Source of the DNA: Bacteroidota bacterium
GTDB taxonomy: Bacteria > Bacteroidota > Ignavibacteria > SZUA-365
Reading direction: 5' to 3'
Assembly: GCA_014860565.1 (NCBI GenBank)
Contig: JACZJN010000024.1
Span: 1 to 42,037, forward strand
Length of the DNA stretch: 42,037 bases
Shown: positions 11,830-36,538 of the stretch, one piece after another
How positions within the stretch are numbered: position 1 is the first letter of the stretch
Layout: every line of letters starts with the position of its first letter
Program-made: the position numbers and the translations under genes
The notes under the pieces: generated by a model
Told to the model about the DNA's origin: nothing
The model's database searches: none
The model's input: the letters and a program-made list of their open reading frames with translations, nothing else

Positions 11830-11871
11830 CATCAAAAGAAAATCGGCAAATCTCTTTCGAAATCTGCCGAT
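11830..11871 (-). terminator. Terminator downstream of tRNA-Glu
   Basis: On the minus strand ATCGGCA pairs with TGCCGAT (11842-11848 with 11865-11871). The stem extends inward with wobble pairs to a GAAA loop and is followed by TTTTCTTTTGAT. It lies 10 bp beyond the 3' end of tRNA-Glu, in the correct direction. The remaining 133 bp up to the VIT gene start hold nothing I recognise. Confidence 0.75.
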
Positions 11872-11880
11872 CATCTTGTT

Positions 11881-11956
11881 TGGTACACCCAACGGGATTC
11901 GAACCCGTGTTTTCACCGTGAAAGGGTGACGACCTAGGCCTCTAGTCGATGGGTGC
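11881..11956 (-). tRNA. tRNA-Glu (anticodon UUC)
   Basis: The minus strand folds into a complete 76-nt cloverleaf. The acceptor stem is GCACCCA with TGGGTGT (the first pair is G-U). The D-arm has GG in its loop (AGAGGCCTA), and the anticodon stem TCACC/GGTGA closes the loop CTTTCAC with anticodon TTC. The variable loop has four bases, and the T-arm is ACGGG-TTCGAAT-CCCGT. Discriminator A and CCA are encoded (11881-11883). UUC reads the Glu codons GAA/GAG. A terminator follows immediately. Confidence 0.97.
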
Positions 11957-12013
11957 CTAGTCTACAAATATAACATCCGGATACTTCTTTGTCAAGAATC
12001 CGCGTCCCCAGTG

Positions 12014-12733
12014 TCAGCGCACCCGTCCGAGCATGCTCTGCATGCGCAGGCGCCATACCATGGTCACGGCTTCGCGTACGATCTTCTTGGACATTTTCGA
12101 AATGCCGACACGTCGGTCCATGAAGATGATCGGGATTTCATGCAGACGGAATCCTTTTTTCCAGGCCTTGAAACTCATTTCGATCTGGAAGGAATAGCCG
12201 TTGCTGCGTACACGATCCAGGTCGATGGCCTTGAGAACCTCGACGCGGAAACATTTGAAGCCGCCCGTGGCGTCGCGGACAGGAAGTCCGGTCACGATGC
12301 GCGTGTACTGGTTGGCGAAGTAGCTGAGCAGCAGGCGCTTCATCGGCCAGTTGATCACGTTCACGCCCTGGATGTACCGGGAACCGAGCACGAGATCATA
12401 CTCCTCAATGGACTCGAGGAAACGGGGAAGAACGTCGGGCGAATGCGAGTGATCCGCGTCCATCTCGAACACATAATCGTATCCCTCCGCGATCGCATAT
12501 TTGAAGCCCGCGAGATATGCCGTCCCCAAACCCATTTTCTTCGCACGCTCGAGGATATGTATGCGCGGGTTTTCCGCCATCATGCGCTTCACCTCTGCGG
12601 CGGTGCCGTCAGGGGAATTGTCGTCGACGACCAGAACTTCCAGACGTTCGTCCTGCCGGAGAATCTCCGGGATGATGGTCTGGACATTCTCCAGTTCGTT
12701 GTAAGTCGGTATGATGACGAGGGCGTGTTTCAT
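12014..12733 (-). CDS. Polyprenol monophosphomannose synthase-like glycosyltransferase (GT2)
   Basis: 239 residues from the ATG at 12733. The open frame extends upstream to 13009 only because the heptanucleotide repeat has no stops. The order of motifs is that of dolichol/polyprenol-phosphate mannose synthases: VIIPTYNELENV at the N-terminus, VVDDNSPDGT (nucleotide binding), EMDADHSHSP (DxD-type metal site), LVLGSRYIQG, and the acceptor region DATGGFKCFR with GYSFQIEM. There is no C-terminal membrane segment, so it is the short, soluble or peripheral type. By family knowledge it moves a sugar from a nucleotide donor (GDP-mannose in characterised members) to a polyprenyl phosphate at the inner membrane. 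Donor specificity is inferred, not shown. It is divergent from the PLD gene at 12973. Confidence 0.9.
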   Translation of the reverse strand: MKHALVIIPTYNELENVQTIIPEILRQDERLEVLVVDDNSPDGTAAEVKRMMAENPRIHILERAKKMGLGTAYLAGFKYAIAEGYDYVFEMDADHSHSPDVLPRFLESIEEYDLVLGSRYIQGVNVINWPMKRLLLSYFANQYTRIVTGLPVRDATGGFKCFRVEVLKAIDLDRVRSNGYSFQIEMSFKAWKKGFRLHEIPIIFMDRRVGISKMSKKIVREAVTMVWRLRMQSMLGRVR

Positions 12734-12810
12734 TCGCTCGGTGTGCTCACGATCCTGCAGTGAGGAAGACAGATTTTGGAATATGCGGAGATTTCGGCAT
12801 TTGTCAAAGT

Positions 12811-12922
12811 CCTGCCTCCTGCATCCTGCCTCCTGCATCCTGCCTCCTGCCTCCTGCATCCTGCATCCTGCCTCCTGCCTCCTGCATCCTGCCTCCTGCC
12901 TCCTGCCTCCTGCCTCCTGCAT
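12811..12922. repeat. Heptanucleotide tandem repeat, 16 units
   Basis: Sixteen contiguous 7-bp units, each CCTGCCT (ten) or CCTGCAT (six), fill 112 bp of the gap between two divergent genes (starts at 12733 and 12973). Because 7 is not a multiple of 3, all frames stay open and give false repeated peptides. Copy number is likely to vary by slippage, and it may alter promoter spacing. Confidence 0.97.
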
Positions 12923-12972
12923 CCCGCAATTTCTTATATTGTCTTTTTCCCCAAATCCGGAAAGGCAGAGGC

Positions 12973-22540: not shown

Positions 22541-22615
22541 GTAGGGCGGATTCACGAATCCGCCCCGGGAAGCCGGGCACAACGAACGCAGGGCGGATTC
22601 ACGAATCCGCCCTGC
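22541..22615. repeat. Two copies of the GGGCGGATTC palindrome
   Basis: Copy 1 (22543-22566) has arms GGGCGGATTC and GAATCCGCCC around AC. Copy 2 has 13-bp arms (22588-22600 and 22603-22615), again with AC as loop. They lie between the convergent alpha-2-macroglobulin and desaturase-like genes and may end transcription. The same family recurs at 24608, 24662 and 36461. Confidence 0.9.
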
Positions 22616-22650: not shown

Positions 22651-23439
22651 TCATGGGTTCGGTTGATATTCATCGGGCATCAGGGGCCGGAATGCGAACA
22701 AATGTTGTCGGATGTAGTTCGTGGGGAAATCGATTTCTCGAATTCCATACCCAGTCGGTTTTTTCCCAACGGGCAGATGTGCGGTGTCGAACAGCCAGTC
22801 CCAGAGCGCGAATTTGGTCGCGAAATTATTCGAGCCGTCCGCGACGACATCGGAATGATGCCATCGATGCATCTCCGGTCCGTTGATCACGTACTGGAGC
22901 ACTCCACTGTGCACGTCGATGTTCGAGTGAATCCACATTCCCCACACCGCGGAAATCATTCCTTTGAGTAACGCGACTTCTGGTGCGGCGCCGAGAAGCA
23001 CGATGGGAGCGAACTCCACGGTTTGATTGATGAGAATTTCCAATGCGTGTGAACGCGAGCCTGACAGCCAGTCCACATCCGTCGTCGAGTGATGGGCTTC
23101 GTGCAGGCGCCAGAGCCGCAGGGAACGGTGCTGGAGACGGTGAAACCAGTAGATGTACAGATCATGCGTCACGACGAAGAAGAGGACCTGCGTCCACAGA
23201 GGCCAGTCGGAAATCAGGTGAAACCGTGACAACCCCGTACTACTATCCATCCAGACGATGAGGTAGTTGATAGCAACGCCGAGCAAGTAACTCTGCACGA
23301 TCGAGTAAAGGATCAGGTCGTTCCAGAATCCTGCGCGGAAGAACATTTGACCCGGGGAATACGGAAAGCGTCGCTCGAGCAGAACGATGCAGGTCGCAGC
23401 GGTGAGAACAATGAGGGGAGAAAGGAGTGCGAGTGACAT
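22651..23439 (-). CDS. Sterol desaturase / fatty acid hydroxylase family membrane protein
   Basis: 262 residues from the ATG at 23439. The open frame upstream (to 23793) runs into the neuB-like gene and is not protein-like. Several membrane segments are visible (LALLSPLIVLTAATCIVLLE; the QVLFFVVTHDLYIYWF region). The three histidine clusters of the family are present: HDLYIYWFHRLQH, HEAHH and HRWHH, which hold the di-iron centre. By family knowledge such proteins hydroxylate or desaturate lipids in the membrane. The substrate is unknown, and sterols are not implied. It is last in the minus-strand cluster, 97 bp after the neuB-like gene with a hairpin in between, so it may be only partly co-transcribed. 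Confidence 0.9.
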   Translation of the reverse strand: MSLALLSPLIVLTAATCIVLLERRFPYSPGQMFFRAGFWNDLILYSIVQSYLLGVAINYLIVWMDSSTGLSRFHLISDWPLWTQVLFFVVTHDLYIYWFHRLQHRSLRLWRLHEAHHSTTDVDWLSGSRSHALEILINQTVEFAPIVLLGAAPEVALLKGMISAVWGMWIHSNIDVHSGVLQYVINGPEMHRWHHSDVVADGSNNFATKFALWDWLFDTAHLPVGKKPTGYGIREIDFPTNYIRQHLFAFRPLMPDEYQPNP

Positions 23440-23536: not shown

Positions 23537-24433
23537 TCAAGCCGCGATAGTGTCTTGCGAAACGCGGCGAAGCTTTTTCCGCGGCCCCAGCTCACTTTCG
23601 TAGACGCGTTTGATGCCGTCTCCGAGAGATTTTTCAATATCGCGGATGTTGGCCACAAGGCGGTAAAGACCGCCGATTTCCACCGATGCCGCATGATCGG
23701 AACCCCACATGGCACGGTCGAGTGTGATGTGCCGCTCGATGAACGTGGCGCCCATGGCAACCGAAGCCCAGGTCGGCGCGAGTCCGGTTTCATGCCCCGA
23801 ATACCCGACCGGCATATGCGGATACATCTGCTTCAACGTGTGGAGCATGCGCAGATTCAGCTCCGGAAGCGTGCAGGGATATGCCGACGTCGAATGCGCG
23901 ATGAGCAGATTATCCGTCCCGATGACCTCGATGGCAGTGTTGATTTCCTGCATCGTTGACATGCCGGTACTGATCATGAGCGGTTTCCCGGTTGCTTTCA
24001 TATGCTTGAGCAGTGCGTGATCGGTGAGCGAGGCCGAGGGCGCCTTGTACACGGGAGGATTGTACTTCTCCACCAGGTCGACAGATGGTTCGTCCCAGCA
24101 GGAAGCGAACCAGTGAATCCGTTTTTCCCTGCAGTAGCGATCGATTTCGGCATACTCGTCATCCCCGAATTCGATCAAGTGGCGGTAGTCGATGTATTTC
24201 ATGCGTCCCCACAGCGTGTCACGTTCCACATCCCACTGGTCGCGAGGGACGCACAATTCCGGTGTGCGTTTCTGGAACTTGACAGCATCGCATCCGGCCA
24301 GCGCAGCTCCGTCGATAAGCTTCTTTGCAAGGTCCAGAGAGCCATTGTGATTGATCCCTATTTCGGCGATGACATAGACGGGCTGACCATCCCCAACCAG
24401 TTTTTCTCCGATGCGACACGTTGCGTTGCTCAT
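23537..24433 (-). CDS. NeuB-like N-acetylneuraminate/ulosonate synthase lacking the SAF domain
   Basis: 298 residues from the ATG at 24433, with AAAGGA 6 nt upstream. It covers the whole TIM barrel of the NeuB family: VIAEIGINHNGSLDLAKKLI, DAVKFQKR, FASCWDEPSVD, YKAPSASLTD, MISTGMSTMQEI, LIAHSTSAYPC, VGYSGHETG and FIERHITLDRAMWGSDH. It stops soon after (RRVSQDTIAA). Typical NeuB proteins are about 345 residues with a C-terminal SAF/antifreeze-like domain, which is missing. By family knowledge NeuB condenses phosphoenolpyruvate with an aldose (for example ManNAc) to make a nonulosonic acid. The true acceptor here is unknown. It lies 285 bp after the KdsC-like gene, behind two palindromes, and may have its own promoter. 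Confidence 0.9.
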   Translation of the reverse strand: MSNATCRIGEKLVGDGQPVYVIAEIGINHNGSLDLAKKLIDGAALAGCDAVKFQKRTPELCVPRDQWDVERDTLWGRMKYIDYRHLIEFGDDEYAEIDRYCREKRIHWFASCWDEPSVDLVEKYNPPVYKAPSASLTDHALLKHMKATGKPLMISTGMSTMQEINTAIEVIGTDNLLIAHSTSAYPCTLPELNLRMLHTLKQMYPHMPVGYSGHETGLAPTWASVAMGATFIERHITLDRAMWGSDHAASVEIGGLYRLVANIRDIEKSLGDGIKRVYESELGPRKKLRRVSQDTIAA

Positions 24434-24607
24434 GCTGTATCCTTTGATTGATGTCCGTTGTGGATTCAACTGCAAGCTACAGGGAGAACGTTACGTCCGT
24501 TTGAGCGCACCGTTACAAGTTGTTGAGGAAACCGTTGGCGATCGATATGTCCCGTGTTACGAAACCGTTTGCATTTCCGCGAATCCGATATCTCGCCCGC
24601 ATATCTC

Positions 24608-24631
24608 AGGGCGGATTCATGAATCCGCCTC
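24608..24631. repeat. GGGCGGATTC palindrome, slightly degenerate copy
   Basis: Arm GGGCGGATTC at 24609-24618, loop AT, then GAATCCGCC; the last pair is lost (CCTC in place of CCCT). It is the first of two copies in the 285-bp gap between the KdsC-like stop and the neuB-like start. The remaining gap sequence shows the neuB-like ribosome binding site and nothing else I can name. Confidence 0.85.
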
Positions 24632-24661
24632 GGAATGAAACTGAATTCAGATAGTACGAAC

Positions 24662-24689
24662 GCAGGGCGGATTCATGAATCCGCCCTGC
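24662..24689. repeat. GGGCGGATTC palindrome, full copy
   Basis: Perfect 13-bp arms (24662-24674 and 24677-24689) around the loop AT. It lies 29 bp downstream of the KdsC-like stop (minus strand) and could terminate or stabilise the upstream transcript. Confidence 0.9.
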
Positions 24690-24718
24690 AATGGGGATAA
24701 TGAAATTTCGGGGGAAAT

Positions 24719-25294
24719 TTACATCGTGTTATTCAATCGCAACGTGATCAACGCCTCTGCGAAATCCCGGAACGCGCCGTTGCCACCGCGCCAGGCACAG
24801 ATGTAATGCGCCATGGCGCGTACCTGCGGCATCGCGTCGGCAGGGACAGCCGTCAGGCCATGCTCGCCGACGACATCCATGATTCCGAGATCGTTGACAT
24901 CATCGCCTATATATGCGATTTCATCGTTCGAATATCCGGTTTCCTGCCTGATGCGGACAAGCGCGGTGGACTTGTCCTTCACGCCGAGATACAGATGCTT
25001 CAACTTGAGTTTCTCGGCACGGCGCTTGAGGTTGAGCGATTTTTCCCCGGTGATGATGCCGGTTTCCACGCCCAGGACGCGCAGTCTCTCCATGCCCATG
25101 CCATCGCGGATGCTGTAGCGCTTGACGGCCTCGCCCTCAGGACCGTAATACACTCCGGTATCGGTGAGGACACCGTCGTTGTCCGTGAGCAGAAGCCGGA
25201 TCCTGCGCGCGCGGCGTTGGAATTTTTCCGGTGACAGGTGTTGTATGCTCCCGAGTACCTCGGGCAGGATCGATTGGACAGGAAGAATACTCAT
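24719..25294 (-). CDS. KdsC-like HAD-family sugar-phosphate phosphatase
   Basis: 191 residues, ATG at 25294, no clear ribosome binding site. The motifs of the C0-type HAD phosphatases are present: LLLTDNDGVLTDTGVYY (nucleophile Asp; usually DVDG, here DNDG), IITGEKS (motif II Thr), a Lys in LGVKDKSTAL (motif III) and YIGDDVNDLGIMD (motif IV acids). Length and lack of a cap domain fit KdsC, which removes the phosphate from Kdo-8-phosphate. The related phosphatase domains of sialic acid pathways act on nonulosonate-9-phosphates. Its place next to a NeuB-like synthase suggests that it dephosphorylates that product; this is inference. About 30 residues precede the usual KdsC start. Confidence 0.9.
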   Translation of the reverse strand: MSILPVQSILPEVLGSIQHLSPEKFQRRARRIRLLLTDNDGVLTDTGVYYGPEGEAVKRYSIRDGMGMERLRVLGVETGIITGEKSLNLKRRAEKLKLKHLYLGVKDKSTALVRIRQETGYSNDEIAYIGDDVNDLGIMDVVGEHGLTAVPADAMPQVRAMAHYICAWRGGNGAFRDFAEALITLRLNNTM

Positions 25295-25347
25295 ACGCTG
25301 AAATTAAAGAAAAAACTGCTCAGTACCCTCGTGTTCGCGTGTTTTTC

Positions 25348-26169
25348 TTACCAGGCCGTCCATCCACCGTCGACGACGAGGTTCGTCCCTGTCATGTAAC
25401 GCGAGGCATCGCTCGCGAGGAACACGATCGCGCCATGATAGTCGTTCGGCTCCGACATCCGCCCGAGTGGTGTGCGCTTCGCATAGTTAGCGACAAAGTC
25501 CTCGTCCTGTCCGTTGCGGACACCCCCGGGCGAAAGCGCGTTCACACGCACACCCGCATCGCCCCAGTACGCTGCGAGGAAGCGCGTAAAAGAAATCACG
25601 GCCCCTTTCGCGGTCGGATAGACTGCGGATTTATAAAACATCTGTTTTCCGTCGGGTCGACGGTACAGCGACTGATCCGGAGCGACGATGCCGTATGTCG
25701 ATGCGATGTTAATGATGCTGCCGCTCTTGCGCCTTGCCATGTGTGTCCCGACAATCTGGCTGCAGAGAAACATTCCGGTGACATTGACGTCGAGACACTT
25801 ACGCCAGAGTTCGAGTGGATAATTCTCGAAACGGGACGCTTCAAGTGCCGAAACCGGATCCTCCACCATGTCGTTGATGGCTGCGTTGTTGACCAGCACG
25901 TCGACCTGGCCGAATACGTCAATGCTTCGCTCCAGTAGTGTCTGTACCGATGCAGGGTCGGTGATGTCCGCTCCGACACCGAGCGCGGAGCGACCGGACG
26001 CGCGCTGCAGCGACGCGGCGAATGCCTCGGCGGCCTCATGATTGAGATCGGTGACGATGACATGCGCGCCTGCGCTGGCGAGGGCGTTGCAATGCTCACG
26101 TCCGATGAGTCCGAGCGCGCCGGTAACGATGGCCACCTTGTGATCGATGGAAAACACGGGGAGAGACAT
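25348..26169 (-). CDS. Short-chain dehydrogenase/reductase (SDR)
   Basis: 273 residues from the ATG at 26169, only 4 bp after the stop of the EEP gene, so translation may be coupled. The frame continues upstream to 26568 but there overlaps that gene. Classical SDR features: cofactor loop TGALGLIG near residue 17, acidic end of beta-2 (VTDLNH, suggesting NAD preference), DVLVNNAAIN, a conserved INIASTYG serine strand, catalytic Tyr184 and Lys188 (YPTAK), then LSPGGV and the C-terminal TGTNLVVDGGWTAW. By family knowledge it oxidises or reduces an alcohol/ketone. In this cluster the substrate is probably a sugar or sugar-phosphate intermediate. Confidence 0.92.
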   Translation of the reverse strand: MSLPVFSIDHKVAIVTGALGLIGREHCNALASAGAHVIVTDLNHEAAEAFAASLQRASGRSALGVGADITDPASVQTLLERSIDVFGQVDVLVNNAAINDMVEDPVSALEASRFENYPLELWRKCLDVNVTGMFLCSQIVGTHMARRKSGSIINIASTYGIVAPDQSLYRRPDGKQMFYKSAVYPTAKGAVISFTRFLAAYWGDAGVRVNALSPGGVRNGQDEDFVANYAKRTPLGRMSEPNDYHGAIVFLASDASRYMTGTNLVVDGGWTAW

Positions 26170-26173
26170 GCGG

Positions 26174-27127
26174 TCAGTTGTTGCGGGTTTTGAGTTCGAG
26201 ATCTGCATATACCGGGTAATGGTCTGAAAGGGTGAAATCATGAAGCACGCCGTAGTCATGTAGATGCCAGTGTCGGCTGAACATGATGTAGTCGAGCGTG
26301 CGGTTTGGAGCGCCCGTGGGATAGGTCCAGAATTGCAGCGAATCGTCGTGCCGAACGGTTCGCAGTCCTGCATCTTCGAGAATGCGCAGCGTACTGTCGT
26401 TGCGATAATTGTAGCGGTCGATGTCCCCTTCTCCGTAATTCCCGATACGGCACCCCCCCGGCACAGTGTTGAGGTCGCCCATGAAGACGATGGGCACATC
26501 GCCAAGCAGGCGCAATACTTCGGCGATGCTGCGCGCCTGCCGCATGCGCGCAGCGGGACTGTATGCATGAAGGTGCGTATTGCCGATCCAAACGATGCTG
26601 TCTTTCAGCAGAAAGGGGGCGATCGTGAAACCGCAGGAAGCGAGGAAAAACACCTTCCCAGGCATGAGCTCGCTGTACCCCTGGTCGGAGAGTTTCGGCA
26701 GCTGGCTCAGCATCAGGTTCTGGTAGCGGAAGCCGGCAAACCCGACTCCGTGTTCGATGAGCGCATCGAAACCGCTGAGGACGCGGTAATGATCGCGCTG
26801 CCGATACTTCGCGTGGATTTTTTCACCGATACCGAGAATGCCGTTGAAGACTTCCTGCAGGGCCACGATGTCATATCGCCGGCTGTGCTTGTTGAGCCAG
26901 TCGGATATGAAATACGCGTACGCGCGCGTCTCGTGCAGCAGCTCGATGCGCTGACCTTCCATCTCTTCCGCCTTGTCGAGGAGAAGGCCGAGCTTGGGTC
27001 CCTGTCCCCGATGCGTATTGATACTCAGGCACCGAAGCCGGTATTCGCGGAGCAGGGGATGTGAGCGGTCGGTGTGGAGGAGCGATGTCCTCTTGTGCTG
27101 CGCTTCGTTCGCTATCCGTGCGATCAT
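26174..27127 (-). CDS. Endonuclease/exonuclease/phosphatase (EEP) family protein
   Basis: 317 residues from the ATG at 27127, GGAG 9 nt upstream. Family signatures in order: LSINTHRG (strand with Asn), IVALQEVFNG (metal-binding Glu), WIGNTHLHAYSP (His), IVFMGDLNTVPGG (Asp and Asn), LDYIMFSRHW (Asp) and TLSDHYPVYADLEL (catalytic Asp-His). No signal peptide is visible, so it acts in the cytoplasm. EEP proteins cut phosphodiester or phosphomonoester bonds in DNA, RNA, inositol phosphates or sphingomyelin, and the sequence alone does not select among these. Its presence inside a sugar cluster is odd: 90 bp after the aminotransferase, 4 bp before the SDR. Confidence 0.88.
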   Translation of the reverse strand: MIARIANEAQHKRTSLLHTDRSHPLLREYRLRCLSINTHRGQGPKLGLLLDKAEEMEGQRIELLHETRAYAYFISDWLNKHSRRYDIVALQEVFNGILGIGEKIHAKYRQRDHYRVLSGFDALIEHGVGFAGFRYQNLMLSQLPKLSDQGYSELMPGKVFFLASCGFTIAPFLLKDSIVWIGNTHLHAYSPAARMRQARSIAEVLRLLGDVPIVFMGDLNTVPGGCRIGNYGEGDIDRYNYRNDSTLRILEDAGLRTVRHDDSLQFWTYPTGAPNRTLDYIMFSRHWHLHDYGVLHDFTLSDHYPVYADLELKTRNN

Positions 27128-27217
27128 GCCTGGTACTCCGAAATGAGGTGCATCACTACTGTACTATGCAACTGTCTGCTTCTGGCTGCTATGAAATGGA
27201 ACTGCTTCGCCGCTGAG

Positions 27218-28558
27218 CTATGCAGCCTTCTGCTTCGCCTTTGTATGAAAATGCCCGGTCTTGCGGAACACGGGTTCGACGGGCTCTCCGCGCAGTGCGG
27301 TCTCTATCGTGCCTGCATCCACTGCGGTCTTGAGCATCGGGAGAACCTCCCGGTACACCGCGAGCGTGTGTTCGATGTCGGTGTCGCTGTGGCTGAAGCT
27401 CATGTTGTGGAAGCCGGACCAGAGAATGCCCCGGCGTATCAGTTCCTGCTGCACGAATGATTTCATGAGCAGGGGATTGCCCGCGGAGATATCGAAGGTC
27501 ACGATGCTGCGGCAATCGTAGCCCTTGCACTGCACGTAAGGCATATCAAACTCCGCCGCGAGCATGTTGACACCATCTTTCAGCCGTCGGCCCTGTGCGA
27601 AGAGGTAGTCATGGACACGCTCTTCGCGCATTTCCTCTATCGTGGCTTTTGCCGCTGCGAGGGACAGTGCCTCGCCGCCGAAGGTAGTGAAGAAGAAGAC
27701 GTCCTTCTCACAAAGCGACATGACATCCGCACGTCCGGTCAAGACCGAGAGCGGCATGCCGTTGGCGATGGCCTTTGAAAAACAGGCCATATCGGCTTTT
27801 ACGCCGAAGTATTCCTGCGCGCCGCCAAGGGCGAGACGGAATCCGGTCCACATTTCATCGAAAATCAGCAGAGTACCGTTGCGTTCGCATGCGGCCTTGA
27901 GTTCCTGGAGGAAGTTGTTTTCCGGTGCATCGAACACCACCGGCTCGAGTATCACACAGGCGGTGTCATCATCGAGGGCATCGATCACCGAAGCGATATC
28001 GTTATAGTTGAGCGTGTACGTCAGGTCACGCACGGCTTGGGGGATGCCGCGGTTGCGGTCGGTGGTGGAAATATACCAGTCGTGCCAGCCGTGATAGCCG
28101 CAGCACAGGACGGTACTGCGTCCGGTGAATGCGCGGGCGAGCCGAACGGCGGCAGACGTGACGTCGTTGCCGGATTTCGAATAGCGGACCATCTCGGCAT
28201 TGGGAATGACCTCGCGGAGGAGTTCCGCCACCTCGACTTCGAGAGGATGTACGAGCGAAAAGGTGATGCCGTCGTCGAGCTGTGCGCGAATGGCGTCATC
28301 GACGCGCGGATACCCGTAGCCCAGCGAAATCGGCCCGATTCCCATGTTGTAATCGATGTATTGGTTCCCATCCACATCCCACAGATGTGCGCCCTTCGCG
28401 CGGGCGGCGAATTTCGGCGCAACGCCGCGCACATATTGTCCGGCGCCTTTCGCGAGCGTCTGGGTCTGTGAAGGAATCAGTCCGACGGCCCGCGCGTAGA
28501 GCGCATCGGATTGTGTGATGTCGGGATCACTGCTGTTGAATGCGATGGTATTGGACAT
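27218..28558 (-). CDS. Class III PLP aminotransferase, glutamate-1-semialdehyde aminomutase-like
   Basis: 446 residues from the ATG at 28558; a GTG at 28567 overlaps the previous stop (GTGA) and is an alternative start. The fold is that of fold-type I class III transaminases: AHLWDVDGNQYIDYNMGIGP, SGNDVTSAAVRLARAFTGR, CGYHGWHDW, ILEPV, LLIFDEMWTGFR and the PLP-lysine loop MACFSKAIANGMPLS with Lys262. The IDYNMGIGP and GYHGWHDW segments resemble glutamate-1-semialdehyde aminomutases, but here the gene is flanked by transketolase and sugar genes and by no haem genes. By inference it aminates (or moves an amino group on) a sugar aldehyde or ketone. It follows the transketolase C gene with overlap or a 5-bp gap. 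Confidence 0.9.
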   Translation of the reverse strand: MSNTIAFNSSDPDITQSDALYARAVGLIPSQTQTLAKGAGQYVRGVAPKFAARAKGAHLWDVDGNQYIDYNMGIGPISLGYGYPRVDDAIRAQLDDGITFSLVHPLEVEVAELLREVIPNAEMVRYSKSGNDVTSAAVRLARAFTGRSTVLCCGYHGWHDWYISTTDRNRGIPQAVRDLTYTLNYNDIASVIDALDDDTACVILEPVVFDAPENNFLQELKAACERNGTLLIFDEMWTGFRLALGGAQEYFGVKADMACFSKAIANGMPLSVLTGRADVMSLCEKDVFFFTTFGGEALSLAAAKATIEEMREERVHDYLFAQGRRLKDGVNMLAAEFDMPYVQCKGYDCRSIVTFDISAGNPLLMKSFVQQELIRRGILWSGFHNMSFSHSDTDIEHTLAVYREVLPMLKTAVDAGTIETALRGEPVEPVFRKTGHFHTKAKQKAA

Positions 28559-28563
28559 GGTGC

Positions 28564-29523
28564 TCACAGATAGGTTTTAAAGTGGGATTCGGAAAGGACC
28601 TGCAAATCGTGCCGATAACCGCGACGCTCGAGTTCCGTCAGGATGCGTGCCGCGATATCCTGTCCCGTGCATTCTTCATGCTCGAGGACACGCGGGAGCG
28701 TCGCGGGTCGGAACCAGCGTTCCTCCAGTGCGATCGGGAGCAGGGGACACATGATCTGCTTCTCCAGGCAAAGCTCGGCGAGGATCGACACAAGTCCGCC
28801 GGTCTTGAAATGATCCTCGACGGTCACAAGCATCGCGCATTCATTCACCGCGCGAATGACGGCTGCCTCGTCTAGCGGTTTGAGTGTGCGGAGATTCACA
28901 ACGCGGCAGCGAATGCCTTCCGCGTTCAGCAGCTGTGCGGCCGTCCACGCCTCGCGGAAAAGAAATCCGTAGGTGAGAATGGCGACGTCCTTTCCGTCTC
29001 CATGTTCTTCCGCCTTGCCAATGGCGAAGGGCTCGTGGTGCTCGGTCACCGCGGGCAGGCTGTTGAAGCGGATGTACCACGGACGAGGTGAGGCGATGAT
29101 TGCCGTGATTCCCGAAATCATTTCGTCATTGTCCGCCGGGGCAAACACTTGCATGCCGGGAATGCCGCGCATCAGGGAGATGTCTTCCAGCGCCTGGTGT
29201 GTAGGACCGTTGCCGTCGGAAAGGAAGCCGGGAACCGCCCCGACCAGCTTGACAGGCAAGGAGGGAATGCCGACGTCGGTACGGATGAATTCGAATGCGC
29301 GCAAGGTCAGAAAGGTCGCGAGTGCATGTACGATCGGAATTCGTCCGCGAAGGGCGAGTCCGGCGGCCGCACCGATCATCGTCATCTCACTGATGCCGAC
29401 ATCGATGAGGCGTTCGCCGAGATGCTGCGGGAGATTGCGAATGGCTGCCCGGTTTTCCGCGGTCATCACCAGCACGCGATCGTCATCGGTGGTGATCTGT
29501 CGCAGGAGTTCTTCGTATGTCAT
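28564..29523 (-). CDS. Transketolase C-terminal subunit (split transketolase)
   Basis: 319 residues, ATG at 29523. It carries the pyrimidine-binding and C-terminal domains of transketolase / DXS-type enzymes: RLIDVGISEMTMIGAAAGLA (with the activating Glu), LRAFEFIRTDVG, GPTHQALEDISLMRGIPGMQ, VFAPADNDEM and, in the last third, VVNLRTLKPLDEAAV and TVEDH. It lacks the TPP/diphosphate domain, which is encoded by the gene before it (29559-30437, 35 bp gap). The two should form one heteromeric enzyme that transfers two-carbon ketol units between sugars. Such split pairs are known in archaea and in some bacterial surface-polysaccharide clusters. The donor and acceptor here are unknown. Confidence 0.93.
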   Translation of the reverse strand: MTYEELLRQITTDDDRVLVMTAENRAAIRNLPQHLGERLIDVGISEMTMIGAAAGLALRGRIPIVHALATFLTLRAFEFIRTDVGIPSLPVKLVGAVPGFLSDGNGPTHQALEDISLMRGIPGMQVFAPADNDEMISGITAIIASPRPWYIRFNSLPAVTEHHEPFAIGKAEEHGDGKDVAILTYGFLFREAWTAAQLLNAEGIRCRVVNLRTLKPLDEAAVIRAVNECAMLVTVEDHFKTGGLVSILAELCLEKQIMCPLLPIALEERWFRPATLPRVLEHEECTGQDIAARILTELERRGYRHDLQVLSESHFKTYL

Positions 29524-29558
29524 GATACCTGTGTACCTGGAGTGTGGTGGGAGAAACG

Positions 29559-30437
29559 TTAACGGACGAAGAGTGTTTCCGATGTGAGTGCGGCATCACC
29601 GATGCCATGCAATTCGTCGAGGAGCATCGCGACTTCTTCGGATGAAAAATTGACGAACCAGCGATCCGCCCGCTCCTCGATGCTCGGCAGTCCCTTCCCG
29701 CGCACGGTGTCGGCGATCACGACACTCGGCTTCCCTTTTTCGAAGGGCAGCGAGGAAAAGACTTCTGCCATTTGATCGAACGAATGTCCGTCGATGCGGC
29801 GAGGCGACCAACCGAACGCGGTGAATTTATCTTCGAGCGGTTCGAGCGGTATCAATGACTCGGTACGCGTGTTGGCCTGGAAGCTGTTGCGGTCGACGAT
29901 CGCCACGAGGTTGTCGAGGTGATGCGCCTGAGCGACCAGGCAACTTTCCCATATGGAACCTTCATTGAGCTCCCCGTCACCGAGCAGGACGAACACGCGG
30001 TTCGCATTCTTGCGCATCCGGATGTCCAGGGCGACGCCGACGCCGACCGAGAGCAAGTGTCCCAGGGAACCTGAATGGAACTCGACGCCGGGAATGCTGC
30101 GGTTGGGATGCCAGTACAGATTGTCGGTCGCTTTCAGGTGATTGGCGAGCCGCGCACGGTCGAAGTACCCGAGTTCCGCGAGCGTGCCGTACAAGGCCGG
30201 AACATCGTGGCCCTTTGAGAGAAGGAAATAATCGCGTGCGGGATCGTCGACCCGTTCGGGTGAGATGTCGAGAACGTGGCTGTAGAGATACGTGATCAGG
30301 TCGGCGCATGAAAGCGATGCGCCGATGAAACAACCGCCATCGGTGGACAGGCGGATGATGTGTTCGCGTACCCGCAGGGCGAGCGTTTCGAGTTGGTCTC
30401 GTTCTATTGCTTGCATGGGATATCCCTGTTGTGTCAT
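29559..30437 (-). CDS. Transketolase N-terminal subunit (TPP-binding)
   Basis: 292 residues from the ATG at 30437, whose bases overlap the stop of the SpsF-like gene as ATGA, which suggests translational coupling. An internal ATG at 30416 with AGGGA upstream is an alternative start. It shows the N-terminal transketolase domain: CFIGASLSCADLITYLY, YFLLSKGHDVPALYG, GVEFHSGSLGHLLSVGVG, the TPP/metal motif LLGDGELNEGSIWES, IVDRNSFQ and VIADTVRGKGLP. The domain stops before the pyrimidine-binding part, which is the next gene. Together they form a cytoplasmic ketol transferase, probably making a sugar for the surface glycan; no pentose-phosphate genes are adjacent. Confidence 0.93.
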   Translation of the reverse strand: MTQQGYPMQAIERDQLETLALRVREHIIRLSTDGGCFIGASLSCADLITYLYSHVLDISPERVDDPARDYFLLSKGHDVPALYGTLAELGYFDRARLANHLKATDNLYWHPNRSIPGVEFHSGSLGHLLSVGVGVALDIRMRKNANRVFVLLGDGELNEGSIWESCLVAQAHHLDNLVAIVDRNSFQANTRTESLIPLEPLEDKFTAFGWSPRRIDGHSFDQMAEVFSSLPFEKGKPSVVIADTVRGKGLPSIEERADRWFVNFSSEEVAMLLDELHGIGDAALTSETLFVR

Positions 30438-31270
30438 GGGAATACAGTTGTGTGCGGTGAAGATTGGGTGCTACCGGGACGCGTCATGTCCGCGGTAATG
30501 GTCAACAGTTCGTGCAGATGATGGCGGTACCAATTCACGCCGGCGTGCCGGGCATTGATTGCCGCGATGGCGGGCTCGCGCTCCAGGAGTCCCAGGATGT
30601 CGTCGCATGTGAAATGCGCTCCGTGCAACGGGTACAGACGGGTGTATACCGTCCGGATGAACTGGTAATCCTCGGCGTAATCGATGGTCCAACGATGCGT
30701 CATGGAGAGATTCCGGTCGCTGTCCCAGGCGATGTTGCCGATGCGGAAGCGGTCGGGCCGTTCCCAGAGGTAGGGGGTTGTATGCTCACGCTCCATTGCG
30801 AGACGCGCATGTTTCCATGCATCGTGCAAAGCCTGTATCGAGACGACCTCGACGTCGTTTCCGTCGGGCCAGCTGGGCGGATGAAGATTGCTTACGTAAT
30901 CGTACTGATCCTGATGCGTGATATACCACGCGAGCACCCGATCAACGATCGCAGGATCTATCAGGGGACAATCCGACGGAATCTTGACGACGACATCGGC
31001 GTCGTAAAGCAGTGCCGTCCGGTAATGCCGGTCGAGCAGATCGAAGGGATCGCCGCTGTAGCACAATATGCCTTCACGGTTGCAGAGGAGACGGATGTCG
31101 ATGTCCTCGGGTTCCGTCGTGGTCGCGACGACGATTGTCGCGGGAGTGCGGACAAGACGCAGGCGTTCGATCATCCGCACAAGAAGCGGCTTCCCCATGA
31201 GAGGGAGAAGGACCTTTCCCGGAAGACGACTGCTGCCGCAGCGCGCTTGGACGATAATGACGATATTCAT
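30434..31270 (-). CDS. SpsF-like cytidylyltransferase family protein
   Basis: 278 residues from the ATG at 31270, 3 bp after the previous stop, with an AGAGGA ribosome binding site. The N-terminal nucleotidyltransferase signature is clear: VIIVQARCGSSRLPGKVLLP, then KPLLVRMIERL, a GDPFDLLDRHYRTA segment, VVKIPSDCPLIDPAIVD (metal Asp) and MTHRWTIDYAEDY. This is the pattern of SpsF (spore coat polysaccharide) proteins, relatives of CMP-Kdo and CMP-sialic acid synthetases. By family knowledge it transfers CMP from CTP to a sugar acid. In this cluster it is the only visible activating enzyme, so it is the probable partner of the NeuB-like product. Its stop overlaps the transketolase N start. Confidence 0.88.
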   Translation of the reverse strand: MNIVIIVQARCGSSRLPGKVLLPLMGKPLLVRMIERLRLVRTPATIVVATTTEPEDIDIRLLCNREGILCYSGDPFDLLDRHYRTALLYDADVVVKIPSDCPLIDPAIVDRVLAWYITHQDQYDYVSNLHPPSWPDGNDVEVVSIQALHDAWKHARLAMEREHTTPYLWERPDRFRIGNIAWDSDRNLSMTHRWTIDYAEDYQFIRTVYTRLYPLHGAHFTCDDILGLLEREPAIAAINARHAGVNWYRHHLHELLTITADMTRPGSTQSSPHTTVFP

Positions 31271-31273
31271 GGA

Positions 31274-32329
31274 TTATATCCTCTCCGCGAAGAGCAGGCG
31301 TGAAACACGCTGCCAGGTTTCAGGCGTAAAGCGCGAACGGCGCACAGGACGTGTCCGCAAGCGGGTACGTGGTGCATTTCCACGTTCGAGAAAATCCCGG
31401 CACATATCGGCGATGCGCTTCGCGGAAGTTCCCCCGTTCTGAATCGGCACCTGCGCGCGCAGCTCGTCCATGTCGAATTCCGAGTGCACTTCCTTTCCGA
31501 GCGCCAGTCCGACGTACACGACGGAGGAAAACCGCGTGATGAGCACGGCGCAGTTTGCGACCATGTGGTTGGTGTTTCCCTCGGTGTAGACAAGGGCTCC
31601 CGGGGCCTCGTCCTTGATCTCTTCTGCCGCACGCGCGTGATTCTCATTCGGATGCAGTTTGAAAATCAGGGTTCTTCCGGCGGCGATATCCACACATTGA
31701 CGGATGAATTTCCTGCGGTTCTCGTAGCGGAATGTTTCACGCGTATCGCTGGTGGCGACCAGAACGTAATCGCGATGGGGGAAATCATTCTCGAGATACT
31801 GCGCACAATTGTCGAAGTTCGGAATGCCTGTGACGACGAGTTTTTCGGGTCGCACCCCTTTGTCGATAAAGAGGTCCCGGTATCCGTTGCTTGCGACGCA
31901 GAAATAGTCATAGCGATCGCTCAGCCCCGTGACGGACGTGCTTGCAAAGTAACGAGGGAGGCGGAGATGCTTGACGAGATGATAGGCAAAGCCTTCCGGA
32001 TCGGTCATGCCTTCCTGCACGAGCACCAGCTTGCGGCTGCGGATGTTACGAGGGACGATCAGATCCTGGCAGGTCAGCACGAGATCGTATTCATGCGCGA
32101 TGCCATGGTCGTCGATGTTGAGATTGTGCTGCCGCATGTATGCAAGCGCGCGGGTCCGCATCTTATTCCCGAGAATGGTGAATTCGAGAAACCCGTGCCG
32201 GCTCAGCCAACGGATCAGATAGTCGCCGTAATAGGGCGTGAAATGGTTTTCATACTCGGGCAAATGCGAGGCGATCTGATGCATCTGCGTCGTTTGATTG
32301 AGTGTACCGCATATATACAGAATGTTCAT
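31274..32329 (-). CDS. Glycosyltransferase-like protein of the surface-sugar cluster (GT-B type suspected)
   Basis: 351 residues from the ATG at 32329, which overlaps the stop of the flippase-like gene as ATGA. The frame is open further upstream, but that is the neighbour's reverse frame. The N-terminus (MNILYICGTLNQTTQMHQIA) and a C-terminal half with VLVATSDTRETFR, TLIFKLHPNENHARAAEEI, a VYTEGNTNHMVANCAVLI strand-helix and FSSVVYVGLALGKEVHSEFD fit a GT-B fold as in capsule, polysialyl- or CDP-glycerol-type transferases. The KLHPNE segment is typical of that superfamily. There is no membrane segment. I cannot assign donor or acceptor; by position it probably uses the CMP-activated product of the cluster. 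The C-terminal 40 residues are very Arg-rich. Confidence 0.65.
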   Translation of the reverse strand: MNILYICGTLNQTTQMHQIASHLPEYENHFTPYYGDYLIRWLSRHGFLEFTILGNKMRTRALAYMRQHNLNIDDHGIAHEYDLVLTCQDLIVPRNIRSRKLVLVQEGMTDPEGFAYHLVKHLRLPRYFASTSVTGLSDRYDYFCVASNGYRDLFIDKGVRPEKLVVTGIPNFDNCAQYLENDFPHRDYVLVATSDTRETFRYENRRKFIRQCVDIAAGRTLIFKLHPNENHARAAEEIKDEAPGALVYTEGNTNHMVANCAVLITRFSSVVYVGLALGKEVHSEFDMDELRAQVPIQNGGTSAKRIADMCRDFLERGNAPRTRLRTRPVRRSRFTPETWQRVSRLLFAERI

Positions 32330-33390
32330 GCCGGTCTGGATTTCTGAAGAGGAATGTGAAAGGGATTGATGCCGAGGTATCCGAACAGCCCCAGACCGAT
32401 GCCCGCCCATGCGAGTTCCTTTCCCCTGCGGATGACGATGAATGCCGCGGAGAGTGCCAGCGCTTCGGGCCCGATCAGTGCCGAGAGCAGTGCGGCGAAG
32501 CTGATTTCCTGCGCTCCGAGTCCCGACGGAATGAAGAAAAACAGCAGCTTCACAAGGGCGGCGATGGACTCGATGATGACCGCTTGCACGATCGTGACAT
32601 TGGCTCCGAGCAGCGTCAGAATGAGCCAGGTTTCCATCGCCATGACGCACCAGCTCAGCATGAAATATCCGAGGGAATGCAGCAGCCGGGACTTCCGTTT
32701 GAGACGAAACGCGTTCAGATACCCGTCGATCTCCGTAAGGACGATGCGTCCTCGCCGGATGAATTGTTTCACCGCATCGAGGGGAATGTGTTCGAGAATG
32801 CTCGCAAGTTGGGTGAGGCGTCCACCGCTGTACGGAAGAAACAACGCTCCCGTGAAAAGCGCCGCCGCGGCCGCCGCACCGATTCCCGCGGCAGGGGTGG
32901 CGAAGACACCTGTTTGTTTCAATGGTCCCGAATAACTGATCGCCGCCAATGCGAGACCCGCCAGAAGGAACAGCATCTGGGTGATGGCGATATTGATCTT
33001 CGCAACGATGGTTACAGCAAGGGCATCGCTCCAGCGCATGCGAAGGCGTTTCTGGAGCAGGAACGGACGCAGGGTCTCGGCGAAAGCCACGCCGGCAGGA
33101 AATGTGTTCATCACTGCGTCGGTGGCGAGACGGATGGCGCTGATCTCACGCATGGGAATATCCCGTGGAACAGGCATGGTATGACGCCAGCCGCGTGCGT
33201 CGAGCATGGTCACGAACGCATATGGGAGGAATGGAATTACAGCCAGCGGTCCCATGCGTCGCAGGAGTGAAAGCGCTTCGTGTATATCGAGCGCATGAAA
33301 CTGCGACCAGAGCAGAAATGCGATCGCACTTATGACACTGACTTTTACCGCAAGGGTCAGGGAGCGCGTTATCGGGCGCGGAGGATTCAT
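32326..33390 (-). CDS. Flippase-like / lysylphosphatidylglycerol synthase TM-region family protein (UPF0104)
   Basis: 354 residues, ATG at 33390, no clear ribosome binding site. It has about eight hydrophobic segments (for example VISAIAFLLWSQFHALDIH, a VVAFPLPY-like stretch near 50, MLFLLAGLALAAI, FMLSWCVMAMETWLILTLL, LVKLLFFFIPSGLGAQE). The loop FIPSGLGAQEISFAALLSAL near the C-terminus is the hallmark of the UPF0104 / AglD / LPG-synthase membrane family. By family knowledge these proteins handle lipid-linked or lipid substrates; a sugar-lipid transport or transfer role is inferred from the neighbours. It is translationally coupled to the next gene and 67 bp after the IMPase-like gene. Confidence 0.85.
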   Translation of the reverse strand: MNPPRPITRSLTLAVKVSVISAIAFLLWSQFHALDIHEALSLLRRMGPLAVIPFLPYAFVTMLDARGWRHTMPVPRDIPMREISAIRLATDAVMNTFPAGVAFAETLRPFLLQKRLRMRWSDALAVTIVAKINIAITQMLFLLAGLALAAISYSGPLKQTGVFATPAAGIGAAAAAALFTGALFLPYSGGRLTQLASILEHIPLDAVKQFIRRGRIVLTEIDGYLNAFRLKRKSRLLHSLGYFMLSWCVMAMETWLILTLLGANVTIVQAVIIESIAALVKLLFFFIPSGLGAQEISFAALLSALIGPEALALSAAFIVIRRGKELAWAGIGLGLFGYLGINPFHIPLQKSRPA

Positions 33391-33457
33391 GAAGCTAAAC
33401 TAGAGCCCCACTGTTCTTCCTGCGTTAAGATGCGATGAGTTCGATGTGGGGGAATCG

Positions 33458-34354
33458 TTACGACACGCTAACACAGCGAGTATGAACCCCTTCATTTCCC
33501 TGCTCAACCTCCTTCGCGAGCGCCGCGATGACGGCTGCGTGCAGGTGAGGCGCGGCTGCGACAAGGCTGTTCGCCGTGAGCGGATCGCCTCCCTCGTAGC
33601 TGCTGACGATGCCTCCCGCTCCCCGGATGATCGGGATGAGTGCAAGCATGTCCCATGACTTCAGGATCGGATCCACCATGATATCCGCGTTCCCCGAGGC
33701 CAGGAGTGCATACCCGTAGCAGTCGCCCCAGCTGCGGTACAACCGGACACGCGACGCGAGGGCATCGAACGCCGCACCATTTTTGTGCCGCCATACGTCG
33801 ACGTGGTCCGTGACCAGGAGGGTCGCGTCAGAGAGCACGATGTTGTCGCGCATGCGCGTGACCGCGCCATTGACGGTGGTGACGTTTCCGTCCCCGAAAT
33901 ATCGAAGCCCGAGTGCGGGGAAATTGGCGCAGCCGAAAACAGGATCGCCGTTCTTGCAGAGCGCGATCAGCGTACCGAAGAGAGGAACACCGCTGACGAA
34001 GGATTTTGTGCCGTCGATGGGATCAAGCACCCATCGATATTCCGCCTCGGGCAGATGTTCGCCACATTCTTCTCCAAGCACGCCATGGGAGGGGTGGCGA
34101 CGCATGATGATCTGGCGCATGACTTCCTCCGCCCCCCTGTCCGCTATGGTGACAGGGGAATTATCGGACTTGTGCTCGACGTCCACGCCGGTCTGGAAAT
34201 ACTCCAGGATCAGGTCTCCGCTCACATCCGCCAGGAGATGAACCGTTTCAGTGAAGGAGAGCGTGGAATCTGCGACGGTGGCTGTATCGGGGGAAAACAA
34301 AACAGTTGCTCCGGCTATCTCATGATACGAACAACCGCAAGGTGTGGCCCGCAT
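33458..34354 (-). CDS. Inositol monophosphatase / histidinol phosphatase family (IMPase-like)
   Basis: 298 residues if started at the ATG at 34354. A TTG at 34300 with GGAG 8 nt upstream (280 residues) is an attractive alternative, because the first 18-30 residues look unlike the family. The core is clear: SDNSPVTIADRGAEEVMR, HGVLGEECGE (metal Glu), WVLDPIDGTKSFVSGVPLFG (metal Asp residues and the Thr) and LKSWDMLALIPIIRGAGG (the WD metal site). These residues bind Mg2+ and remove a phosphate from inositol, histidinol or sugar phosphates. HisN-type histidinol phosphatases have this length. Here no his genes are adjacent, so a sugar-phosphate substrate is possible. It is the first gene in the minus-strand cluster. 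Confidence 0.88.
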   Translation of the reverse strand: MRATPCGCSYHEIAGATVLFSPDTATVADSTLSFTETVHLLADVSGDLILEYFQTGVDVEHKSDNSPVTIADRGAEEVMRQIIMRRHPSHGVLGEECGEHLPEAEYRWVLDPIDGTKSFVSGVPLFGTLIALCKNGDPVFGCANFPALGLRYFGDGNVTTVNGAVTRMRDNIVLSDATLLVTDHVDVWRHKNGAAFDALASRVRLYRSWGDCYGYALLASGNADIMVDPILKSWDMLALIPIIRGAGGIVSSYEGGDPLTANSLVAAAPHLHAAVIAALAKEVEQGNEGVHTRCVSVS

Positions 34355-36460: not shown

Positions 36461-36538
36461 AGGGCGGATTCACGAATCCGCCCTGATTCACGAATCCGCC
36501 CTGATTCACGAATCCGCCCTGATTCACGAATCCGCCCT
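36461..36538. repeat. GGGCGGATTC palindrome expanded into an 18-bp tandem array
   Basis: A full palindrome copy (36461-36484) is followed by three more direct copies of its right part, the 18-bp unit GATTCACGAATCCGCCCT (36485-36502, 36503-36520, 36521-36538). It lies 20 bp after the gcvP stop on the minus strand, so it may terminate or protect the gcvP mRNA. Two further bases (AC) end it. Confidence 0.95.

Follow-up and report, generated by a model that had tools for sequence, protein, structure and literature searches.

Gene content of the cluster

The window, a 42,037-nt stretch from an Ignavibacteria genome of the phylum Bacteroidota, carries a cluster in which a NeuB-like synthase, a KdsC-like phosphatase and an SpsF-like CMP-sugar synthetase are accompanied by a split transketolase (TK-N and TK-C), a class-III aminotransferase (AT), an SDR dehydrogenase and a candidate glycosyltransferase (GT) (Table 1). 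All nine gene types named in a first-pass annotation were confirmed in place on the minus strand by their coordinates and by Pfam and NCBIfam scans, but two genes had been overlooked, an Exo_endo_phos family protein and a fatty-acid hydroxylase. The gene starts of the SDR, GT, NeuB and fatty-acid hydroxylase were fixed by comparison of relatives. Overlaps of 4 nt occur between flippase and GT, SpsF and TK-N, and TK-C and AT, while gaps of 3 nt and 35 nt separate GT from SpsF and TK-N from TK-C. The IMPase is probably a non-core member.

Table 1. Genes of the cluster, listed by decreasing position in the window
Gene product	Position	Strand	Basis of assignment
IMPase/HisN-like phosphatase	33458..34354	-	NCBIfam HisN-type histidinol-phosphatase TIGR02067, 276.4 bits (cut-off 275.15)
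UPF0104/LPG_synthase_TM flippase-like protein	32326..33390	-	PF03706, 94 bits
GT-B-fold glycosyltransferase candidate (GT)	31274..32329	-	AF2 model pLDDT 87; no Pfam match
SpsF-like CMP-sugar synthetase	30434..31270	-	PF02348, 3.2e-25; nearest PDB 6oew
Split transketolase N-terminal subunit (TK-N)	29559..30437	-	PF00456; nearest PDB 6yak; ThDP motif conserved; Phe in place of the GHxG His
Split transketolase C-terminal subunit (TK-C)	28564..29523	-	PF02779, PF02780; nearest PDB 6yaj
Class-III PLP aminotransferase (AT; GSAM-like, PRK06209 type)	27218..28567	-	PF00202; NF004856, 393.7 bits (cut-off 486)
Exo_endo_phos family protein, accessory	26174..27127	-	PF03372
SDR dehydrogenase	25348..26169	-	Pfam and NCBIfam scans
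KdsC-like HAD phosphatase	24719..25294	-	TIGR01670, 126.6 bits (cut-off 106.95)
NeuB-like PEP-condensing synthase (298 aa; no SAF domain)	23537..24433	-	PF03102, 2.9e-73
FA_hydroxylase (sterol desaturase superfamily)	22651..23439	-	Nearest NCBIfam ornithine-lipid hydroxylase OlsE, under its cut-off

NeuB scored 240.6 bits against bacterial sialic acid synthase TIGR03569 (cut-off 399.65), with the match stopping at profile position 277 of 329 and the SAF domain missing, and 186.7 bits against pseudaminic synthase PseI, TIGR03586 (cut-off 340.25). The cluster resembles the Neu5Ac, pseudaminic and legionaminic acid pathways in its NeuB-family synthase and CMP activation, and differs in its NeuB without a SAF domain, its extra phosphatase, class-III AT and split transketolase, and in its acceptor genes: in line with the earlier claim, a Pfam scan of the window genes, small ORFs aside, showed no canonical NeuC-, Pse- or Leg-type gene (PseB and LegB included). 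The best NCBIfam match of the phosphatase by E-value was KDN-9-P phosphatase NF058599, at 139.1 bits and under the cut-off of 180. The Bacteroides KDN pathway likewise pairs a KdsC-type phosphatase with a NeuB-type synthase; it is not known to include an AT, SDR or transketolase. The window genome has one NeuB match and three CTP_transf_3 matches, namely a KdsB, the window SpsF and a GlmU-like protein. Assignment of SpsF as the Kdo enzyme of this genome was rejected, as the separate KdsB scored 233.4 bits and SpsF only 37.5 bits against TIGR00466 (KdsB; cut-off 155.2).

The GT was compared by fold with the CMP-ulosonate transferases (GT38/GT52/GT80 and KpsC type); of these, polysialyltransferase 5wc6 was retrieved at Z 14.0, below TagF (15.3) and the sugar-nucleotide 2-epimerases (Z up to 18.4) that top the lists at 10-17% identity. 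Besides two chance-level matches (E above 1), the profile search returned TagF-like Cps3D (0.00016) only, and in three different arrangements the gene is adjacent or close to one for a CMP synthetase. The profile match and this neighbourhood disfavour a NeuC-type epimerase.

Conservation of the gene set and its Chlorobi variant

Eighty loci related to the window NeuB were compared, comprising 22 from Chlorobi (green sulfur bacteria), 17 that were incomplete and 41 others that were usable. The order GT-SpsF-AT-SDR-NeuB was kept in 35 of these 41, with a split transketolase in 28 and none in 7, so that chance clustering was rejected; the range covers Bacteroidota, Ignavibacteria, Myxococcota, Chloroflexota and one methanotroph plasmid. 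The cluster is therefore real, with the co-occurrence and gene order across phyla that the first-pass annotation had proposed to look for, and its claim of one dedicated CMP-ulosonate pathway is supported. The IMPase, flippase and exo-endo-phosphatase were inconstant neighbours across the 80 loci. At E<=1e-8 the window flippase was matched in four loci, likely an undercount because the family is divergent, and it adjoins GT in some relatives only; the exo-endo-phosphatase was matched in three at the same threshold, its gene lying ahead of that for the SDR in L002-L004 as well as in genomes G033 and G115. The fatty-acid hydroxylase was present in 38 of 58 non-Chlorobi loci, usually behind NeuB.

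Within the phylum, 118 genomes were compared: 50 carry both NeuB and GT, neither of which occurs elsewhere, AT and SDR share an identical set of 24 that falls wholly within those 50, and the transketolase occurs in 22 of the 24 and nowhere outside them. The P values for this co-occurrence take no account of kinship, and a single family, the Chlorobiaceae, supplies 26 of the 50 genomes. Co-occurrence nevertheless persisted where linkage was lost, as in G107, in which GT, NeuB, TK/AT and SDR lie on four contigs.

In the 26 Chlorobiaceae genomes with NeuB and GT, no AT, SDR or transketolase was found at the cut-offs used. A DegT aminotransferase was instead present in 25 of them, always within the 50 genomes carrying NeuB and GT and never together with AT, and its nearest solved relative was KdnA, 5k8b (1.6e-75, next match 1.2e-46), the 8-amino-Kdo transaminase. 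The gene adjoins GT and an iron alcohol dehydrogenase (FeADH) in all three loci read (L139, L140 and L141), where the operon runs flippase-GT-CMP transferase-FeADH-DegT; the matches of FeADH include KdnB, 5k8c (1.1e-14), with other alcohol dehydrogenases matching better. The window genome gave no match to the Chlorobi DegT at E<=1e-90. The CMP synthetase of Chlorobi is of a different type from the window SpsF, and the two aminated sugars may therefore differ.

In Shewanella, KdnA and KdnB work on the ulosonate once it is complete, KdnB being described as the Kdo 8-oxidase in the background literature consulted (PMC11762602, PMC5125639, PMC5036845). The Shewanella 8-amino-Kdo route, in which the ulosonate is formed first and alcohol oxidation and transamination follow, is comparable, the DegT of Chlorobiaceae being nearest KdnA, whereas the operon has NeuB rather than KdsA, SpsF rather than KdsB, the SDR and class-III AT in place of KdnB and KdnA, and an added split transketolase. 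Given Chlorobiaceae genomes with NeuB and GT, without AT, SDR or transketolase, and with a KdnA-like DegT, the AT is tentatively read as aminating the ulosonate after NeuB rather than the acceptor, and the pattern suggests that two non-homologous amination modules have been swapped around a common NeuB and GT. Oxidation followed by transamination of the ulosonate is suggested by the gene content of Chlorobiaceae only; amination after NeuB is favoured both by that gene content and by the relatives lacking a transketolase.

The split transketolase

In the TK-N tree, from which three long-branch rows were excluded, the operon TK-N formed a clade of its own (100/100) that was sister to, and not inside, the clade of split transketolases from Streptomyces LysW (amino-group carrier) clusters, with support of 97/89 for the joint branch; with the three rows kept, the joint branch had an SH-aLRT of 88 and held one long row. 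L158, which was placed with the LysW transketolases, has homologues of LysW, LysX, ArgC, ArgB and DegT in its context. These Streptomyces clusters, presumably of the vazabitide/azinomycin type, also have a split transketolase adjoining an aminotransferase. They differ in that the latter is a DegT rather than a class-III AT, and no PEP-condensation or CMP gene was annotated in the stretches seen. In the LysW clusters the transketolase lengthens an aldehyde by two carbons, and transamination follows; by analogy the operon enzyme may act likewise.

The ThDP/Mg motif and catalytic Glu are kept in the operon proteins, all 31 TK-N rows having the GDGE Asp and all 33 TK-C rows the Glu. At the GHxG His, presumably part of the usual transketolase sugar channel, 30 of the 31 rows from operons have Phe and one has a gap; all 26 other transketolases have His. 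That the LysW transketolases keep the residue which those of the operon have lost counts against the preferred reading. Among 20 printed rows, all five from operons have Trp at the 'H261eq' position; of the other 15, 10 have His and five are incomplete. At the position of E. coli Asp469, Asn occurs in 33 of 33 operon rows; other transketolases also vary there (Asp in 2 of 16, and Tyr in 3 of 3 from LysW clusters), so the operon Asn does not break with an otherwise invariant position.

Of the 24 genomes searched, 10 that have SpsF, AT, SDR, KdsC and NeuB at the locus (9 of the 10 also with GT) gave no TK-N ortholog, and neither did G019 (L006). A related full-length transketolase (35-40% identity) was present in 7 of these 10, and six TK-bearing genomes also have a full-length transketolase (27-31% identity; 15 genomes picked from the 80 loci). 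The transketolase and AT searches covered 24, 14 and 15 genomes picked from the 80 loci, and their absences are soft because many are incomplete metagenome genomes. Five changes of state were counted for the transketolase on the NeuB tree, which was built quickly and has many poorly supported branches; its starred branches force at least two changes. The AT showed no fixed difference between loci with and without the transketolase, which fits a transketolase that leaves the AT substrate unaltered and so counts against the preferred reading. A scan of viral contigs for TK-C found nothing.

Proposed pathway and alternatives

The likeliest product of the gene set is an acidic amino sugar, so far uncharacterised, that is destined for the cell surface and perhaps carried by a lipid; the way in which a reshaped transketolase is paired with an aminotransferase here has no known counterpart among such pathways. 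In the reading tentatively preferred, the operon would make a CMP-activated 3-deoxy-ulosonate that is aminated late and transferred, perhaps to a lipid. Judging by the enzyme families, NeuB would condense PEP with a phosphorylated aldose, KdsC would remove the phosphate, and the SDR would oxidise a hydroxyl of the free ulosonate, most likely that at the chain end, giving an aldehyde. Where present, the split transketolase would add a two-carbon ketol unit to this aldehyde, the least certain step, after which the class-III AT would aminate the resulting carbonyl, SpsF would form the CMP-sugar and the GT-B enzyme would transfer it. A lipid end point is suggested, and the UPF0104 flippase and fatty-acid hydroxylase, where present, could conceivably act on the lipid part.

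Amination may alternatively come early, with the transketolase, AT and SDR building an unusual amino-aldose phosphate that NeuB condenses with PEP, KdsC dephosphorylates and SpsF activates. This is consistent with the single block often formed by SDR, KdsC and NeuB, and with KdsC itself, which implies a phosphorylated acceptor, as established for Kdo and KDN. The grouping, in some genomes (L145 and L146), of SDR with KdsC-NeuB and of AT with GT-SpsF-TK counts against late amination. In addition, NeuB column 182, beside the acceptor-site motif, tracks the module and with it the SDR, being Asn in 22 of 22 Chlorobi rows and Thr in 45 of 45 rows with AT (the AT set omits L007, a distant match, and the GT check omits L141, whose coordinates were wrong); an altered NeuB acceptor is therefore conceivable, again counting against the preferred reading. 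However, the Chlorobi NeuB is 69-73% identical to that of the window, and up to 78% identical to those of genomes with AT and transketolase (G107, G033 and G115), and occurs without AT, SDR or transketolase, with a KdnA-like DegT by GT; TK-N was not found in the 10 relatives, and in Shewanella the substrate of the KdnA and KdnB pair is an already completed ulosonate. Early amination is accordingly rather unlikely, and although the first-pass observation of the gene set holds, its proposal that transketolase and amination make the NeuB acceptor is the less supported, weaker option.

The product could instead be an ordinary ulosonic acid, amino-free or already known, with the transketolase only supplying pentose or heptose phosphates and AT and SDR serving another step. 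The 10 relatives without TK-N, 7 of them with a related full-length enzyme, fit this explanation, but it is improbable given that AT and SDR coincide in 24 of the 118 genomes and are accompanied there, without exception, by NeuB and GT, that the operon transketolases have Phe for the otherwise constant His, and that six genomes have a full-length transketolase besides the split one. L071 also counts against the preferred reading: it has the SDR, with a GFO/IDH dehydrogenase by GT, and no AT ortholog was found in its genome (one of 14 searched), so the SDR may act independently of the AT. That two unrelated pathways share the locus by coincidence is very improbable: the genes are scattered in some genomes (G107 and G033), but they co-occur even when unlinked, overlap by 4 nt in the window, and include an SpsF-TKN frame that is fused in L067 and L073.

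Returning to late amination, the operons with a transketolase might yield a chain-extended amino-ulosonic acid, in which the SDR would provide a terminal aldehyde, the transketolase a C2 ketol and the AT an amine at the new ketone, so that the chain would end in -CH(OH)-CH(NH2)-CH2OH. This specific structure is doubtful. From a nine-carbon start it would by arithmetic be an undeculosonic acid, C11H21NO10 (327.12), as against C9H17NO8 (267.10) in the relatives without transketolase, a difference of 60.02 Da. The sugar may be attached to a lipid, and a relative of it may be present in the Chlorobium aminoglycosphingolipid of 1991. Neuraminic acid was reportedly named in the Chlorobium lipid by Jensen in 1991. 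No paper on this gene set, or on the sugar genes of that lipid, was found among the open-licence titles and abstract openings listed, a scope in which absence is weak evidence, and the final sugar may, as first suggested, be new. If true, the proposed pathway would extend the ulosonic acids by a branch not yet characterised, could bring a carbon-extending transketolase into sugar biosynthesis, and may open the Chlorobium aminoglycosphingolipid to genetic study.

Gene cluster and its conservation

A scan of open reading frames against Pfam and NCBIfam, with some starts adjusted against relatives, yielded a cluster of 12 genes, transcribed in the order IMPase/HisN, flippase-like protein (PF03706), GT-B-fold glycosyltransferase candidate (GT), SpsF-like CMP-sugar synthetase (SpsF), split transketolase subunits TK-N and TK-C, class-III aminotransferase (AT), exo-endo-phosphatase, dehydrogenase (SDR), HAD phosphatase (KdsC), PEP-condensing synthase (NeuB) and fatty-acid hydroxylase. 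Every gene type named in the first-pass annotation was present, but the exo-endo-phosphatase and fatty-acid hydroxylase had been overlooked. The genome (4.75 Mb, 97.8% complete) contains one NeuB match, a KdsB separate from the operon SpsF, and six Transket_pyr matches including the operon transketolase. Elsewhere in the window, a family-2 glycosyltransferase approximately 10 kb from the cluster overlaps a plus-strand open reading frame. A palindromic repeat, GGCGGATTCRTGAATCCGCC, which is a REP-like element, occurs in five copies in the window against 0 expected in shuffled sequence.

Coordinates of features in the window and in related loci
Feature	Sequence	Position	Strand
Twelve-gene cluster	Window	34354-22651	minus
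20-nt repeat GGCGGATTCRTGAATCCGCC	Window	22545-22564, 22592-22611, 24610-24629, 24666-24685, 36463-36482	
Family-2 glycosyltransferase	Window	12014-13009	minus
SpsF and TK-N in a single fused open frame	L067	4028-5806	
SpsF and TK-N in a single fused open frame	L073	4700-6379	
~372-aa protein after NeuB	L066 (Chloroflexota)	10869-11984	
~372-aa protein after NeuB	L070 (Chloroflexota)	10085	
~372-aa protein after NeuB	L019 (Chloroflexota)	10964	
~372-aa protein after NeuB	L007	1521	

The cluster is real and conserved. At least 80 NeuB-related loci, at 64-89% identity to the window NeuB, were found in the genome collection; 80 were listed, and after removal of 22 Chlorobi loci and 17 with <6.9 kb upstream of NeuB, 41 remained for the order count. 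Among these listed matches, the order GT-SpsF-AT-SDR-NeuB occurred with transketolase in 28/41 and without it in 7/41, with a changed order in one and an incomplete gene set in five. The ordered operon occurs, among others, in Chitinophagaceae, Hymenobacter, Saprospiraceae, Ignavibacteria, Myxococcota and Chloroflexota. On a plasmid of the methanotroph Methylomagnum ishizawai (NZ_AP019784.1) there are genes for GT, SpsF, TK-N, TK-C, AT, SDR, NeuB and a KdsC-like protein, with identities of 52-70%. The gene set was not found described in the open-licence papers searched. Second NeuB copies were seen in two genomes (G063 contig C3 and G075 contig C176), with no further operon gene found in the 19.9-kb stretch (L147) around the former. 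The four loci with a ~372-aa protein after NeuB, which has a GNAT domain in L066, are missing the fatty-acid hydroxylase.

Across 118 genomes of the phylum, NeuB and GT occurred in the identical 50, AT and SDR in an identical 24 within those 50, and TK-N in 22, all within the 24. Genus-level counts (n=67) were 22 for NeuB and GT, 20 for AT and SDR, and 18 for TK-N; because the genomes are related, P values for co-occurrence overstate the case. The best control for co-occurrence independent of linkage is genome G107, in which GT, NeuB, TK/AT and SDR are spread over four contigs and all are retained.

Transketolase, alternative modules and timing of amination

In the operon transketolase the ThDP motif is retained, as is the catalytic Glu, and the closest solved protein is the Carboxydothermus split transketolase. 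A tree of 54 TK-N sequences placed all 31 from the operon in one clade (support 100/100) adjoining four Streptomyces split transketolases of LysW-type clusters (joint branch 97/89), with 19 others apart. In LysW-type clusters, the transketolase extends a semialdehyde by a C2 ketol unit, giving a ketone that is then aminated by an aminotransferase. The GHxG His position is Phe in 30/31 operon TK-Ns (one gap), whereas it is His in 26/26 other transketolases. A search for TK-N orthologs found none in 10 genomes with loci that retain SpsF, AT, SDR, KdsC and NeuB; these genomes occupy two or more separate positions on the NeuB tree. The transketolase thus appears to alter or lengthen the product and not to be required for it, unless another transketolase substitutes. 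By analogy, the product of transketolase-bearing operons could be a chain-extended amino-ulosonic acid, maybe lipid-linked, in which a C2 ketol added by transketolase would be aminated by AT, although this is unlikely. No fixed difference was found between AT of loci with and without transketolase, which is neutral toward, or slightly against, such an extension. A ulosonate-type cluster on Solidesulfovibrio carbinolicus plasmid pDCAR1 (L159) also has a split transketolase, which falls outside the operon clade in the transketolase tree, together with NeuB, PseF, a second CMP transferase, FabG and methyltransferases.

The 26 genomes with NeuB and GT lacking AT all belong to a single family, called Chlorobiaceae because the NeuB of one member is 94% identical to that of Chlorobaculum sp. 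24CR and is followed by HtpG. KdsC-NeuB is separate from GT in the Chlorobi loci read; GT lies in a second operon of flippase, GT, CMP transferase, iron alcohol dehydrogenase and DegT aminotransferase (3/3 stretches fetched; L139, L140, L141). This DegT occurred in 25/118 genomes, all Chlorobiaceae and none with AT; in G142, which has NeuB and GT, neither was found at the cut-offs used. Its closest solved relative is KdnA (5k8b, 1.6e-75; next match 1.2e-46). For the iron dehydrogenase, KdnB (5k8c, 1.1e-14) is one among many matches, the best being 1,3-propanediol dehydrogenase (1.1e-30); KdnB is described as catalysing the first step of 8-amino-Kdo formation (PMC5125639). A third variant (L071) combines SDR-KdsC-NeuB with GT-GFO/IDH-CMP transferase-flippase, and no AT ortholog was found for it. 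Two haloarchaeal plasmids (L153, L154) encode class-III aminotransferases that share 46-47% identity with the window AT, near a DegT aminotransferase and oxidoreductases, with no NeuB annotated within the stretches seen.

Since the same NeuB and GT families are found with either amination module (AT/SDR or DegT), amination is probably late, i.e. after NeuB. The first-pass annotation had transketolase and amination building the NeuB acceptor, which would place amination before condensation. In a NeuB alignment of 22 Chlorobi and 45 AT-associated rows, 124 columns were conserved to 90% or more within each set, and three of these differ between the sets. Speaking against late amination, column 182 follows the amination module, being Thr in AT-associated rows and Asn in Chlorobi; column 67 does so less strictly. 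Column 182 aligns with the Thr preceding Asn184 of meningococcal NeuB, beside the acceptor-site motif. In favour of late amination, Chlorobi NeuB shares up to 78% identity with the NeuB of three genomes that have both AT and transketolase (G107, G033, G115). Early amination is rather unlikely.

Lipid link and predicted product

The GT model (pLDDT 87) has a GT-B fold matching sugar-nucleotide 2-epimerases (Z up to 18.4), TagF (15.3) and polysialyltransferase (14.0), and this predicted fold is by itself insufficient to identify a CMP-sugar transferase. Among the matches listed, the fatty-acid hydroxylase occurred in 38/58 non-Chlorobi loci, some incomplete at their ends, and 0/22 Chlorobi loci; its closest curated model is OlsE (117.3 bits, below the cut-off of 475). 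The next genes in Methylomagnum encode LplT (552 bits, above cut-off), then OlsB-like and OlsA-like acyltransferases, both below cut-off. With the window protein as query, a flippase match occurred in 4/80 listed loci, a figure probably too low because the family is divergent, and in 7/8 fetched stretches containing GT; for the L071 flippase the best E-value was to a model of a glucosaminyl-PG flippase, with a score below cut-off. Both the overall reading and the chain-extension reading lose some weight from the scarcity of flippase matches among the 80 listed loci and from the weakened case for a lipid end point. Jensen reportedly called the sugar of the Chlorobium aminoglycosphingolipid neuraminic acid, of which a 9-amino-KDN would be an isomer. 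That lipid is reported from Chlorobium limicola (Jensen 1991, as cited in PMC11762602).

The operon most likely encodes a new form of CMP-ulosonate biosynthesis in which amination comes late and to which most members add a transketolase step whose place in the pathway is uncertain. The whole reading, in which a CMP-activated, late-aminated 3-deoxy-ulosonate would be made and transferred, perhaps to lipid, is tentative and falls a little short of probable.
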